In this document: one piece after another, positions 4,076-41,310 of the stretch
Layout: every line of letters starts with the position of its first letter
Position numbering within the stretch: position 1 is the stretch's first letter
From: Candidatus Brocadiaceae bacterium
Lineage (GTDB): Bacteria > Planctomycetota > Brocadiia > SM23-32
Assembly (NCBI GenBank): GCA_003551565.1
Contig: PUMZ01000378.1
Coordinates: 1 to 41,327 of the forward strand
Length of the DNA stretch: 41,327 bases
Direction: 5' to 3'
Translations under genes and position numbers: made by a program
Notes under the pieces: model-generated
Database searches by the model: none
Seen by the model: only the letters and a program-made list of their open reading frames with translations
What the model was told of the DNA's origin: nothing

Positions 4076-4787
4076 CAAGGTGAGAGGGATCCTGGAACAC
4101 CTCGAAACAACGCAATTGGAGGCCGTTGACGCGGCCGCCGACTTCATCGTGAATGCATGGGATTGCGGCGGTGTGATTTATTGCCATAAATTCGGCCACG
4201 GCATCGAAGGCGATTCCCGCAGTCGCGCGGGAGGGCTGGTATCCGTAAAGAGTTTTGACTGTCTGCTTCGCATCCGGGACGCCGTTCCCGAATGTCTGGA
4301 AAAAAAACGGCACGACCCCGAGCGCGATCTGAAGGAAATTCGGGCCGCCATTTCCCTGAGCAAACTCAGGGAAAACGATGTCCTGTTCCTCTCTTCGGTC
4401 TCGGGACGGAACCGGGGAAAAGTTGAGATGGCGCTGGCGTGCAGGGACAAAGGGGTCCGGACGGTCTCCTTTTCCTCGCTGGCCTATTCTTCACGGGTGG
4501 AATCAGAGCATCCTTCGGGCAAGAAACTCTGCGAGGTCAGCGACGTCAACATCGATATCGGGGCGCCATACGGCGATGCCGCCGTGGACATTCCCGGAAT
4601 CGAAGTGAAGGTTATGCCCGTATCCGGCGTTTCGATGGCTTGCAGCGCCTGGATGATATGGGGAAGGGCCATGGAAAAAGCGGCAGCCGACGGGAAACCG
4701 CCGAGCGTTCTGATCAGCCATAACAGTGAAGGAGGCCCGGAATACAACGAAAAAAGCAAGAAAATCTATGAAAAGAGGGGGTATTGA
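4053..4787 (+). CDS. SIS domain sugar isomerase-like protein (divergent UPF0309-like paralog)
   Basis: SSVSGRNRGKVEMALACRDKGV and HPSGKKL...GAPYGDAAV motifs shared with the next gene; start overlaps the upstream kinase. Confidence 0.75.
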   Translation: MIPVKYLNKVRGILEHLETTQLEAVDAAADFIVNAWDCGGVIYCHKFGHGIEGDSRSRAGGLVSVKSFDCLLRIRDAVPECLEKKRHDPERDLKEIRAAISLSKLRENDVLFLSSVSGRNRGKVEMALACRDKGVRTVSFSSLAYSSRVESEHPSGKKLCEVSDVNIDIGAPYGDAAVDIPGIEVKVMPVSGVSMACSAWMIWGRAMEKAAADGKPPSVLISHNSEGGPEYNEKSKKIYEKRGY

Positions 4788-4788
4788 A

Positions 4789-5526
4789 ATGTCGGCATCG
4801 CGTTATTTCTCCAGGGCAATAGAGGCAATAGAACAGGTCGCCGAGGACCAGGCCGACACTATCAGGGAGGCGGCCGCTCTCATGACTTCGGCAATCCAGA
4901 ACGACTGCGGGCTGTTTGCCTTCGGCGCCTCGCACTCGTTCATGATGGCAGAGGAAATGGTTTACAGGACCGGCGGACTGATGCTGATCAACCCGATCTA
5001 TCCCCATGGTATGAACCTTGGGGTGCGACCCCTTACCATGACATCCAAAATCGAACGGCTGACCGGACTCGGGGTCGAGTTGCTCGAAGGAGCGGGGGCC
5101 GTCGAAGACGACGTATTGCTCCTTTTTTCCACTTCGGGCAGGAACGCAGTCGCCATCGATATGGCCATCCACGCCGGCGAAAAAGGACTCAAAACCGTGG
5201 GCGTCACATCCCTGGCTTATACGGGCGCGGTCAGCAGCCGTCATCCGTCGGGCAAGAAACTTGCCGATATCTGTGATGTGGTTATCGACAACGGGGCGCC
5301 ATACGGCGATGCCGCCGTTGCAATCGACGGGTTCGACGGCAAGGTCGGCCCCCTCTCCTCGGTCACCGGCTGCGCGATTGTGAATGCGATCGTTTCCGAA
5401 ACGGTGAAGATGCTGGTCGATAACGGCGTGGTCCCCCCGGTTTTTGTCAGCGCGAATGTTGACGGGGGCGACGAACATAATGAACAACTTCTGGAAAACA
5501 ACGCGCACCGCATCCGGTATCTCTGA
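4789..5526 (+). CDS. SIS domain-containing protein, UPF0309-like
   Basis: FAFGASHSFMMAEEMVYRTGG, FSTSGRN, HPSGKKL, SANVDGGDEHN; ATG at 4789 one nt after the preceding stop. Confidence 0.85.
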   Translation: MSASRYFSRAIEAIEQVAEDQADTIREAAALMTSAIQNDCGLFAFGASHSFMMAEEMVYRTGGLMLINPIYPHGMNLGVRPLTMTSKIERLTGLGVELLEGAGAVEDDVLLLFSTSGRNAVAIDMAIHAGEKGLKTVGVTSLAYTGAVSSRHPSGKKLADICDVVIDNGAPYGDAAVAIDGFDGKVGPLSSVTGCAIVNAIVSETVKMLVDNGVVPPVFVSANVDGGDEHNEQLLENNAHRIRYL

Positions 5527-7916: not shown

Positions 7917-9182
7917 ATGCAGATTCAACCGAAATACGACGTCATTGTGATCGGAGGGGGCACGGCGGGGCTCGTCGCCGCCATTCAGGCCGGACGTGCT
8001 GGATCCACCACGTTGCTGGTGGAAAAAAACGCCATGCTCGGCGGCACGATGACCGTGGCAGGAATCAACCGCCCGGCTTTTTTCTTCGCCGGGGACCGTC
8101 AGGTCATCGGGGGTATCGGATGGGAGCTTTTCTGCAAAACCTGCGTTGAAACCGGTCGGCCCGTGCCCACGTCCGCTGAAGGAAAACATCATATGTACTG
8201 TGACGCCGCCATCTTCGCCGCCCTGGCCGACGAAGCGGCACTTGACGCCGGCGTTGACGTGGTGTTCCATGCCATGCCCGCAGCCTTAACCTTTGCCGAT
8301 CGGGCCTGGACGGTGCAGATATGCACGAAAACCGGGCTTCAAACCGTTCGTGCCGGGGCGGTCATCGACGCAACCGGCGATGCCAATGCCGTCGGGATTG
8401 CCGGGTTCGAACTGGAGCGTCCCGACGTCGTGCAGCCGGCAACCCTGACCTTCGGCTGCTCCGGTTACGACCCCGACTCGCTGGATTGGGCCGCTTTGAA
8501 AAAAGCTGCGGACGACGCTATTGCTGCTGGAGAGCTTCTTACCACCGACATCTCGTGGCGCGGGGACGGCCCGCGGGCGCTGTTGCAAAAACACGGGCAC
8601 AACGCAAACCACCTGCGCGCCCCGCAGGCGCAAACCAGCGAAGGAAGGTCCGCGGTCGAAATCGAGGGGCGCAGGGCGTTGCTGCGCATGTACCGCTTCC
8701 TGCGAAAACAACCCGGCCTGGAAGATTTTCGGATCGATCGGTTGTGCGCCGAAGCCGGCATCCGCGAAACGGTTACGATCAAAGGCAAAACAACGGTCAC
8801 GACCGACGATTACGAGTCGGGCAAGTTCTACGAAGACGCCGTTTGCTATGCCTTTTACCCGATCGACGAACATCTCAACGACGGCATGGGCATCAACGCC
8901 CGCCCGTTGAAAGAGGGAGTGCTTCCTACCATTCCGCGCGGGGCATTGTTGCCCGCAGACAGCCGCTTTTTGCTGGTGGCCGGACGTTGCCTCTCCAGTG
9001 AGCGCGAAGCGAACTCGGCCCTTCGCGTCGAATGTCCCTGCATGGCCATGGGCCAGGCCGCGGGCGCCATGGCGGCACTCAGTGCCCGGACCGGCACGGA
9101 CCCGGAAGAGCTCCCGATGGAGGATATCCGGGCTATGCTTCGCGAACATGGGGCAATTATCCCGGGCGATTCCACCGCATAG
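7917..9182 (+). CDS. FAD-dependent oxidoreductase (FAD_oxidored-like)
   Basis: DVIVIGGGTAGLVAAIQAGRAGSTTLLVEKNAMLGGTMTVAG dinucleotide-binding N-terminus; GRCLSSEREANSALRVECPCMAMGQAAGAMAAL C-terminus. Confidence 0.85.
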   Translation: MQIQPKYDVIVIGGGTAGLVAAIQAGRAGSTTLLVEKNAMLGGTMTVAGINRPAFFFAGDRQVIGGIGWELFCKTCVETGRPVPTSAEGKHHMYCDAAIFAALADEAALDAGVDVVFHAMPAALTFADRAWTVQICTKTGLQTVRAGAVIDATGDANAVGIAGFELERPDVVQPATLTFGCSGYDPDSLDWAALKKAADDAIAAGELLTTDISWRGDGPRALLQKHGHNANHLRAPQAQTSEGRSAVEIEGRRALLRMYRFLRKQPGLEDFRIDRLCAEAGIRETVTIKGKTTVTTDDYESGKFYEDAVCYAFYPIDEHLNDGMGINARPLKEGVLPTIPRGALLPADSRFLLVAGRCLSSEREANSALRVECPCMAMGQAAGAMAALSARTGTDPEELPMEDIRAMLREHGAIIPGDSTA

Positions 9183-9274
9183 GTGAGTGCGCCGCGAAAA
9201 AATGCAGCACTCCAGCGAGAGAGCGGAAATCTTTTTTGATACGGTGCTCTGATCCGTGCGCACCCGGCCCCGCT

Positions 9275-9446
9275 TTTCATGCGTGCTCGGTGGTGCAGAC
9301 GCGGCAGAAAGCAAACGCCGTTTGCCTGTGCACAGGCCCGAAGGGCCGATTTCAACAACCTGCCTGTGCGCCGTGCCTGCGCCATCGCATGGCAGGCAGG
9401 TCGCACCTGTCTGCGTCGCGGAAGCGACAGGCAGGCACAGACAGGT
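9275..9446. repeat. Dispersed intergenic repeat, copy 1 (expanded, two adjacent long hairpins)
   Basis: Shares a left block (20/23 nt with 18551-18573) and a 44-nt core (9403-9446, 43/44 identical to 18615-18658) with copy 2; palindromes ACCTGCCTG/CAGGCAGGT (9358-9401) and ACCTGTCTG/CAGACAGGT (9405-9446). Confidence 0.85.
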
Positions 9447-9448
9447 AG

Positions 9449-9557
9449 CCCCGGGCGACCAAAGCGAGCCCGGGGAAACAGAGAACACGCGATTCAACCA
9501 GCCCCGCAAGGGGCGAAACAAAATCCGGATGCGAAGGTTGTCGCGCCCCTCCGGGGC
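9449..9557. repeat. Cluster of short GC-rich palindromes adjoining repeat copy 1
   Basis: CCCCGGGC-N11-GCCCGGGG (9449-9475), GCCCC-GCAA-GGGGC (9501-9514), GCCCC-TCC-GGGGC (9545-9557). Confidence 0.75.
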
Positions 9558-9612
9558 TCACCCCAAAAGAGGGCCCGGGGTCATGTTTTTGCCCGCTCCA
9601 ATCGGTGCTCAC

Positions 9613-9696: not shown

Positions 9697-10299
9697 ATGA
9701 GCGAGCAAAAAAAAAGGAGCGGTGAAACAACCCGCAAGACCGAAGAAACGCAGGTCCGCCTGAGCATCCTTATCGACGGAACGGGCAAGAGCCATGTGGA
9801 AACGGGAGTGGGATTTCTGGACCATATGATCCGATTGCTGGCCGGGCATGCCGGATTCGATATCAACATCGGCGCCGAAGGCGACCTGGAGGTCGACGAT
9901 CACCATACGTGCGAAGATGTCGGTATCGTGCTGGGAGAGGCCTTCAGAGAGGCACTGGGCGACAAGTCCGGCATCACCCGCTTCGCCGACGTCGCGGCGC
10001 CGATGCAGGAAAGCCTTGTCTCCGTCGCACTCGATATCTGCGGCAGGCCCCATCTGGTCTATGACGTCGAATACCCCACGGAAAAAATAGGTGGGTTCGA
10101 TACGAACCTCGTCGAAGAATTCCTCCATGCTTTTGTCACCCATGCGGGAATCACCATGCATGTGCAGCGTGTGCGCGGGACCAACTCGCACCATATCGCC
10201 GAGGCCGTGTTCAAAGCCATGGCCCGGGCGCTCCGCACCGCGGTGGCGATCGACCCCCAATCGGCCGATACTATCCCGTCAACCAAAGGAGTACTCTGA
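9697..10299 (+). CDS. hisB: Imidazoleglycerol-phosphate dehydratase
   Basis: GVGFLDHMIRLLAGHAGFDI, DDHHTCEDVGI, RVRGTNSHHIAEAVFKAMARALRTAV hallmark motifs. Confidence 0.97.
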   Translation: MSEQKKRSGETTRKTEETQVRLSILIDGTGKSHVETGVGFLDHMIRLLAGHAGFDINIGAEGDLEVDDHHTCEDVGIVLGEAFREALGDKSGITRFADVAAPMQESLVSVALDICGRPHLVYDVEYPTEKIGGFDTNLVEEFLHAFVTHAGITMHVQRVRGTNSHHIAEAVFKAMARALRTAVAIDPQSADTIPSTKGVL

Positions 10300-12881: not shown

Positions 12882-13044
12882 CGAATGGCATTCTCCATGC
12901 GTTAATTACTGTCGCTGCTTTATCCCGCATATTTCATAAAACAAAGACAAACCGAGAACGCGTGAAAAAGCGGATTATGAGACATCCGGGGTGGTGTCAA
13001 AAAACCCCGATTGTTCAAGAAGAGCTTGAGAAAGAATTGAGCGC

Positions 13045-17424: not shown

Positions 17425-18483
17425 ATGGGTGGAAATACTTTTGGAGAAGCGTTTTGCGTAACAACGTTCGGCGAGAGCCACGGTGGCGCCGTGGGTGCGG
17501 TGATCGACGGCGCATCTCCCGGAGTGGACGTATCCGTTGAGGATATCCAGGCGCAGCTCGACAGGCGGAAGCCGGGCCGGGGCGGGGTGAGCAGTACGCG
17601 GCGCGAACCGGATAAGGTCAATATATTGTCCGGGGTTTTCGGGGGCAAGACAACCGGTACGCCCATCCTGCTGATTCTTTACAATAAGGATGCCGATCCC
17701 GGGGCCTACGAGGAAATTCGTTCGCTATTCCGCCCCGGTCACGCCGATTACAGCTACAGGAAAAAATACGGGATCCGCGATTGGCGAGGCGGCGGACGCT
17801 CCAGCGGACGTGAAACGGCTGCGAGAGTTGCCGCCGGCGCCGTGGCCCGTCGCTGCCTGCAACAGCGCGGCATTTCGGTGCTGGCCTACACCCGTGCGGC
17901 CGCGGGCATATGGTGCGGGCATGTCAAACCGGAAGAGATCGAAAATAACGCGCTCAGGGCGCCCGATGCGGATGCAGCAGAGAAGATGGCGCAAAAGATA
18001 CATGAACTTCAGCAGCGGGGCGACAGTGCGGGGGGGATCGTCGAATGCCGCATCCACGGCGTTCCGCCCGGCCTGGGCGAGCCGGTCTTCGACAAACTCG
18101 ACGCCCGCCTTGCCGGGGCCATATTCAGCATCGGTGCGGTCAAAGGCGTGGAATTCGGCGCCGGCTTCCGTTCGGCCGACATGACCGGCAGCGAGCATAA
18201 CGACCGGATGGGTGAGGGCGAACGGTTCCTGTCAAATAACGCGGGCGGCATACTCGGCGGCATCTCCACCGGCGCCGATATCGTGTTCCGGGCGGCGGTG
18301 AAACCCACTCCCAGCATTTCTTCGCCCCAGCAGACGGTTGATACCGACGGCCAGGACGCTACCATTCGGATCCGGGGCCGCCATGACGCATGCATCTGCC
18401 CACGGATCGTGCCGGTTGTGGAGGCGATGTCGTGCCTTGTGCTTGAGGATCACTTCAAACGGCATGCAGCGCTTACGGCCTGA
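17425..18483 (+). CDS. aroC: Chorismate synthase
   Basis: MGGNTFGEAFCVTTFGESHGGAVGAVIDG, DWRGGGRSSGRETAARVAAGAVAR, KPTPSISSPQQTVD, RHDACICPRIVPVVEAM. Confidence 0.97.
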   Translation: MGGNTFGEAFCVTTFGESHGGAVGAVIDGASPGVDVSVEDIQAQLDRRKPGRGGVSSTRREPDKVNILSGVFGGKTTGTPILLILYNKDADPGAYEEIRSLFRPGHADYSYRKKYGIRDWRGGGRSSGRETAARVAAGAVARRCLQQRGISVLAYTRAAAGIWCGHVKPEEIENNALRAPDADAAEKMAQKIHELQQRGDSAGGIVECRIHGVPPGLGEPVFDKLDARLAGAIFSIGAVKGVEFGAGFRSADMTGSEHNDRMGEGERFLSNNAGGILGGISTGADIVFRAAVKPTPSISSPQQTVDTDGQDATIRIRGRHDACICPRIVPVVEAMSCLVLEDHFKRHAALTA

Positions 18484-18550
18484 GACGGACCGGCCCGAAA
18501 ACCCGCTCGTCGTGTGGACGCTTTCAAACGTCCCGGGATAGGCGCGCTTA

Positions 18551-18658
18551 TTTCACGCGTTCTCCGTGGTGCACTGATGTGGCAGAAGAGCAAACGCCAC
18601 CTGCCTGTGCGTGGGCACCTGTCTGCGTCGCGGAAGCGACAGGCAGGCGCAGACAGGT
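18551..18658. repeat. Dispersed intergenic repeat, copy 2 (compact form)
   Basis: 43/44 nt core identity with 9403-9446; 11-bp perfect palindrome ACCTGTCTGCG/CGCAGACAGGT around GTCGC-GGAA-GCGAC; 9-bp inverted CTCCGTGGT (18562) / ACCACGGAG (18726) around the region. Confidence 0.85.
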
Positions 18659-18818
18659 TGTCTTTGTGTACGCGATGCGCGGCAATCCCCGGACTCCGCA
18701 GCCTCTGAAGGCAAATCTTCAGTAAACCACGGAGTTTCCACACCGTGACGGGGTGCCGTTTTGGATCATTGCTTTGGCGCGCGGGCTCCCGGGTTGTGAG
18801 GTATGCCGGGTCGCTGTG

Positions 18819-41211: not shown

Positions 41212-41310
41212 CAAATTGTGTCATTTGGCACATGGGCCAAAATGTGGTAAAAAAACAGTCTCCTTTCCTTCTTCCCGGGAGCCACATTATGCTCAAGATG
41301 ACACAATTTG
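41212..41310. repeat. Hairpin or MITE-like element with 13-bp perfect terminal inverted repeats
   Basis: CAAATTGTGTCAT (41212-41224) and ATGACACAATTTG (41298-41310); inner AATGTGG/CCACATT and TTTGGC-ACATGG-GCCAAA pairings. Confidence 0.65.

Follow-up and report, generated by a model that had tools for sequence, protein, structure and literature searches.

The two hairpins between positions 9358 and 9446 of the window (the whole 41,327-nucleotide stretch analysed here, from a Candidatus Brocadiaceae bacterium) belong to a family of palindromes of 27–33 nt whose outer sequence is shared across at least a dozen phyla and which has inserted, scarlessly and in frame, into defence and phage head genes. 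It is likely that the unit is a non-autonomous mobile palindrome, with a fixed outer stem and CG, that relies on an enzyme acting in trans, inserts without duplicating its target, and has been amplified in this genome as the cargo of a MITE. As a rule, small palindromic repeats are specific to a lineage and associated with RAYT transposases. The movement of gene-less palindromes, and their passage between phyla, here becomes testable, with the outer stem serving as bait for the enzyme and the empty and filled sites recording the reaction.

Nested palindromes in the window and their copies in the genome

The initial annotation had described two adjacent hairpins with a second copy of their core 9 kb away. 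Both hairpins fall exactly where it placed them and have the arms it gave, the inner part of hairpin 2 does read GTCGC-GGAA-GCGAC, and a repeat finder recovers the 44-nt core at 18615–18658 with 43/44 identity. The single difference (A9437 versus G18649) is a private change of the first copy, G being found at that position in the great majority of copies. The features concerned are as follows.

9358–9401, + strand: hairpin 1, arms ACCTGCCTG/CAGGCAGGT
9405–9446, + strand: hairpin 2, arms ACCTGTCTG/CAGACAGGT, equal to the 30-nt unit plus the outer arm of the enclosing palindrome
9406–9435, + strand: 30-nt palindrome unit found across phyla, CCTGTCTG-CG-TCGC-GGAA-GCGA-CAGGCAGG
9359–9445, + strand: nested palindrome block of 87 nt holding hairpins 1 and 2, inserted at TTTCAACAA^TAGCCC in the interior of a MITE
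18600–18657, + strand: nested palindrome of 58 nt, in which a 28-nt outer palindrome encloses the 30-nt unit (18618–18647)

The adjacent hairpins are in fact a stack of nested palindromes, since the 58-nt form is itself nested and the 87-nt block adds one more hairpin. The precursor of the 58-nt form is preserved on contig C51 as the empty 28-nt outer palindrome CCTGCCTGTGCGTGCGCACGCAGACAGG, and insertion of the 30-mer CCTGTCTGCGTCGCGGAAGCGACAGGCAGG after GCGCA gives the 58-nt form exactly. In addition to this 28-nt/58-nt pair in the genome of the window, self-nesting of the unit was seen at three further loci (L170, L178 and L229). When folded as single-stranded DNA and compared with dinucleotide shuffles, hairpin 1 is modestly stable (z = -2.3), while hairpin 2 reaches z = -3.8 and -4.2 on the two strands and the hairpin of the second copy z = -5.3.

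The assembly is a 3.8-Mb MAG of 416 contigs, with a completeness of 88% and a contamination of 6.5%. The hairpin-2 core occurs in it at 39 places with up to three mismatches, and the outer pattern CCTGYCTG...CAGRCAGG gives 162 strand-matches, with reversed controls of 0 in both cases; these copy numbers are pattern counts, as the genome searches (79 and 72 hits, with 40 candidates scored in each) missed the second copy. A family limited to the two copies in the window is thereby excluded, and the dispersed, multi-copy palindromic repeat that had been proposed is borne out.

Anatomy and covariation

The unit is laid out as CCTGYCTG-CG-(variable stem-loop)-CAGGCAGG and is mostly 27 or 30 nt long, with a range of about 27–33 nt. 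An inner stem of at least 3 bp is present in 108 of 117 contexts, compared with 15.7 after shuffling, and this inner part was not fixed by the search pattern. Among 35 distinct 30-mers, 97.4% of the cells in the 12-bp helix are paired, a value to which the outer 8 bp contribute no independent evidence because the search pattern largely fixes them; the three inner pairs show 10, 9 and 10 two-sided changes, and none of 500 shuffles reaches the covariation score. The pairing-preserving covariation noted earlier therefore stands for the inner stem, across copies and species, but not for the C-G/T-A difference that separates the two hairpins, which is one pair compared between two arms.

The unpaired CG on the 5' side is constant and pair 5 is mostly T.G, making the two strands unlike, and this asymmetry suggests that one folded strand is recognised. 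Lengths of 27, 30 or 33 nt account for 111 of 127 contexts, a bias that is suggestive only, as the search was restricted to 27–34 nt for most matches. Equal growth of stem and loop (3+3, 4+4, 5+5) alone yields multiples of three, and the bias may be structural. Similarly, the screen of open reading frames for cases within genes favours lengths divisible by three by construction. Stop codons are absent from all six frames in 42 of 57 variants, compared with 25% of shuffled sequences.

The host repeat is a MITE restricted to one genus

The window copies are cargo of a MITE bearing terminal inverted repeats and are not the repeat unit itself. The parts of this host element in the window are listed below.

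9267–9592 (start near, end about), + strand: MITE copy 1, left end present and right end (M8–M9) lost, from the module map
9333–9357, + strand: M2, palindrome GGCCCGAAGGGCC, the first module of the M2–M7 palindrome array
9446–9592, + strand: M3, M4 and a partial M7, the remainder of the GC-rich palindrome array
12924–12974, - strand: solo MITE copy, about 50 bp long, that has both inverted ends and is flanked by the target duplication ATAA (TTAT on the + strand, at 12920–12923 and 12975–12978)
18543–18690 (right limit approximate), + strand: MITE copy 2, consisting of the left end, the 58-nt nested palindrome and the beginning of the ancestral loop, with the right end lost

Pfam matches place copy 1 between an FAD-oxidoreductase gene (ending at 9182) and a hisB-type imidazoleglycerol-phosphate dehydratase (IGPD) gene (starting at 9697), and copy 2 between a chorismate synthase gene (ending at 18483) and a gene for an SMC-like ATPase. 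The intergenic bias expected for the palindromes thus applies to the copies in the window, but elsewhere the unit lies in frame within coding genes.

When aligned copies are cut into modules, the MITE is a mosaic of a left end (M1), optional palindrome-rich blocks (M2–M7), M8 and a right end (M9). Its termini (left CCCGCTTATTTCACGCG, right TTTGGTTTATGAAATATGCGGG) form inverted repeats of about 13 bp, the terminal inverted repeat CCCGCWTATTTCA being found at both ends. Identical 4-bp flanks were found in 14 of 40 two-ended copies, compared with 3.3% for pairs of mismatched copies, and these target duplications follow NTAN (for example, ATAG, TTAA, TTAG, TTAT, CTAC and CTAG). The right end occurs at about 105 places in the 3.8-Mb MAG (up to three mismatches; control 0). 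In a comparison of relatives it numbered 95 here, 97 and 2 in two congeners, and 0 in 26 others; the MITE, a new family, is confined among these genomes to one genus.

Around 110 right ends were inspected, and no transposase was recognised between matched ends, where only part of the open reading frames could be identified; nor, there or near cross-phylum hairpins, did any reading frame recur other than repeat translations and scattered pairs without relation to one another. IS1380 was considered as a source of the MITE and rejected (PF13701 is absent). GC-rich palindrome arrays of the M2–M7 type flank IS200-like Y1 transposase genes on two contigs, C48 (L082:760-1847) and C98 (L032), and the M2–M7 block may therefore be derived from an element of this kind, without its gene. 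These arrangements resemble TIRtrons/TIRYT, in which arrays flank Y1 transposases, although most copies of M2–M7 contain no gene. Tandem M2–M7 arrays with units of about 254 bp also lie near the ends of contigs C14 (L069:783-1546) and C273 (L104:221-1152). The host element shares terminal inverted repeats, 4-bp duplications, the lack of a gene and a modular interior with optional blocks with other MITEs, pneumococcal BOX and further mosaic repeats, but, unlike them, contains a GC-rich array of palindromes and a mobile palindrome that is independent of it.

The hairpin is a unit separate from the MITE and is found at several positions within it as well as within its own kind. For example, four hairpin-free MITE copies of about 245 bp (L124, L127, L129 and L131) read CGCCG^CTGTA, or nearly so, where others hold the 58-nt palindrome, and the TTTCAACAA^TAGCCC site is empty in two copies (L065 and L099) and filled in four (L001–L004). 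A 19-nt relative, CCTGCCTGCAGCAGGCAGG, is located at GGG^TMAACCG in MITE copies. Another repeat of the same genome, GTGGACGCTTTCAA...CGTCCC (L395–L400), has a 20-nt palindrome, CCTGCCTGCCGGCAGGCAGG, in several copies, and positions 18505–18535 of the window look like the corresponding empty site.

Scarless insertion into phage and host genes

Natural empty sites demonstrate that insertion of the unit is scarless. In a phage terminase gene, two loci (L402 and L403) carry the palindrome CCTGTCTGCGTGCAACGCACAGGCAGG between GAGGGAGCCCGA and AGGCGGTGG, while in viral contig L404 GAGGGAGCCCGA is followed directly by AGGCGATGG. The filled and empty forms differ by exactly 27 nt, with no duplication and the frame kept, and their flanks are about 95% identical (57 of 60 bases, counted by eye). 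The same 27-mer lies in the capsid-protease gene of the same phage, between the peptides LRFAF and GQNLQAAFS, which are joined in four other loci (L405–L408). Similarly, a 30-mer splits KPSG^VEW in frame in a verrucomicrobial hsdS, where the second repeat of the gene provides the empty site. No target-site duplication of the hairpin unit was found, empty and filled sites differing by the palindrome exactly.

Protein profile matches lead to the same reading: that of BrxC continues through an insertion of 11 residues, and a Mutator-type transposase and phage head proteins likewise have matches that run across their insertions. Where a protein of a bacterium or phage contains nine or ten odd residues, these may mark a recent palindrome insertion. 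An hsdM case (L212) was discarded as proof of tolerance, as the gene is broken further on. Bases and residues around the insertions were read from alignments. The insertion point is a purine^pyrimidine step in 89 of 117 contexts, most commonly G^C, with the best phage sites (A^A and T^C) among the exceptions.

Two further observations concern the same genes. Near the C-terminus of the BrxC frame at L330, whose end reads KDLSAVPAQAGFPE, there is a second LSA...AQAG peptide that equals the signature of the palindrome in one frame, which suggests that this gene took up an earlier copy that has since decayed. In addition, a second and unrelated palindrome, CCCTTGACACTTCGCGTCAAGGG, forms a 27-nt in-frame insertion in the same phage capsid gene (L404:3001-5277), a few bases from the site of the first, and was found on three viral contigs (L404, L482 and L483), hinting at a wider class of in-frame palindrome insertions.

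Distribution across genomes and phyla

The pattern CCTGTCTGCGT-N7..14-ACAGGCAGG is present in 31 of 58 relatives (reversed control 0), and copies per genome are patchy among relatives of one class, ranging from 0 to 73. Ca. Brocadia pituitae, a complete genome, has one unit, and Ca. Brocadia sp. WS118 has two, 2225 bp apart. A scan of 85,000 species genomes identified at least 116 stretches with the unit in at least a dozen phyla. The matches listed include Planctomycetota, Kiritimatiellae, Lentisphaeria, Verrucomicrobia, Deltaproteobacteria, Anaerolineales, WOR-3, Gallionella, Nitrospinota, Nitrospira, Methylomirabilota, Latescibacterota, Bipolaricaulota, Campylobacterota, Bacteroidota, Spirochaeta and Tectomicrobia, among others, together with one archaeon, a Methanosarcinales MAG. 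Most hosts are MAGs, and the single-copy cases in the archaeon and in CPR are weak; single-copy genomes (the archaeon, CPR, Actinomycetes) could reflect chance, binning error or contamination.

Copies were counted in 30 of the genomes with matches, with a reversed control of 0 in all 30. Numbers reached 73 in Ca. Scalindua, 64 in Latescibacterota, 49 in Deltaproteobacteria, 44 in both Kiritimatiellae and Anaerolineales, and 18 in Ca. Thiosymbion oneisti, and every multi-copy genome had its own favourite inner sequences. The flanks of cross-phylum copies are not conserved, and no orthologous fixed positions beside the same genes were seen across species. Known phage and plasmid records held no convincing copy of the unit. 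The open-access literature (subscription papers were outside the scope) contained no description of its sequence, the string occurring in one irrelevant paper, and concept searches there returned only papers on REP, RPE and MITE elements.

Relation to REP elements and other explanations

The initial annotation had implied a REP/RAYT system; the corresponding explanation is a conventional REP/REPIN family of the kind seen in E. coli or Pseudomonas, mobilised by a RAYT (a Y1 tyrosine transposase). The likeness to GTAG REPs is considerable: these are dispersed, bulged stem-loops of 20–40 bp with many variants per genome, frequently in pairs, clusters or nests and in some cases within genes, and the unit (27–33 nt, 39 core copies) falls within the size given for a dispersed imperfect palindrome of this kind. 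Y1_Tnp genes are also present in 53 of 58 relatives, and the genome of the window has two long RAYT-like reading frames of 260–270 aa. However, GTAG or its complement lies within 6 nt of the stem in only 1 of 117 contexts, and CGTC lies within 6 nt on the right in 4 of 117 and is absent from the consensus (both tags are defined in PMC3733652). RAYT genes in REPtrons are flanked by their own REPs (PMC3733652), whereas the hairpin was found within 1.5 kb of 1 of 34 Y1_Tnp loci in seven genomes. In addition, the number of Y1 genes is unrelated to that of hairpins (31 and 1 in one relative, 26 and 0 in a second, 0 and 1 in a third). The RAYT explanation, already weakened, is therefore unlikely, and the earlier idea was half right, in that a REP-like dispersed palindrome holds and the link to a RAYT does not. 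The unit also departs from GTAG REPs in that it has a single outer sequence across at least a dozen phyla and inserts into genes exactly and without a scar. CGTC-tagged REPs (Di Nocera et al. 2013, PMC3733652) are alike in their 8-bp stems, short loops, wide taxonomic range and the lack of a known dedicated transposase, but the unit has no CGTC at a fixed end, its outer stem is not A/T-ended, and it has a fixed internal CG bulge instead.

A conserved outer sequence with a covarying stem would also be expected of a functional structure, such as a terminator or protein-binding site maintained by selection in many bacteria. This is improbable given the patchy copy numbers within one class, the copies that sit without a scar within the hsdS, brxC, terminase and capsid genes, the absence of conserved flanks and the lack of any Rfam match in the window. 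In their position in frame within these protein genes, the copies resemble Rickettsia palindromic elements (RPEs). RPEs are about 100–150 bp long and not known outside Rickettsiales, and their description sets them apart from the unit, which is 27–33 nt long and cross-phylum.

An immobile hairpin that simply belongs to the MITE interior and is spread by it is less probable still. It would account for the finding that all but a few of 37 inspected genomic copies sit within MITE copies, and it is true of most copies in this genome. As a full account it is refuted, because the MITE right end is limited to 3 of 29 relatives, all of one genus, while the hairpin is found in many phyla without the MITE, occupies several distinct positions in the MITE, and also occurs in genes of phages and hosts. 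Finally, although many host records are MAGs, an assembly, adaptor or contamination artefact is scarcely credible for a unit with its own inner variants in many copies per genome, a copy in the complete Ca. Brocadia pituitae genome, nested and in-frame sites unlike those of adaptors, and covariation.

Proposed mechanism of movement

For a mobile palindrome acting as suggested above, the fixed 8-bp outer stem (CCTGYCTG/CAGGCAGG) and the unpaired CG would be recognised by an enzyme supplied in trans, likely on a folded single strand, leaving the inner stem-loop free to vary as long as it remains self-complementary. Cutting at R^CCTG and CAGG^ would then be followed by seamless joining into another R^Y step, such that no target duplication arises and purine^pyrimidine steps are preferred. 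The unit would accept its own kind as a target, giving nested copies such as the double hairpin of the window, as well as other mobile repeats and, in frame, genes, including phage structural genes. Copies inside MITEs would be amplified by transposition of the MITE, and those in phage genes may offer a route between hosts that could carry the unit between phyla.

The proposed chemistry resembles the single-strand transposition of HUH enzymes, although no Y1 gene is linked to the unit. Single-strand transposition by HUH enzymes leaves no duplication. Among the gene families around 80 cross-phylum loci none was recurrent, and neither a transposase nor any other enzyme could be linked with the unit. 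More tentatively, it is possible that all copies form one family of about 30 nt, moved without a scar, in the form of a folded strand, by an enzyme yet to be described, and spread across many phyla (perhaps including archaea), partly in phages; its usual lengths (27, 30 and 33 nt) and the scarcity of stop codons in its six frames would then be selected because they make insertions into genes tolerable.

Other repeats in the window

Two further repeats were observed in the window. A direct repeat of 117 nt (4509–4625 and 5242–5358; 73% identical, 733 nt apart) lies in a coding stretch and is probably a duplicated domain. At the end of the window, positions 41212–41310 contain a 22-nt inverted repeat that is 82% complementary, with 55 nt between its arms.
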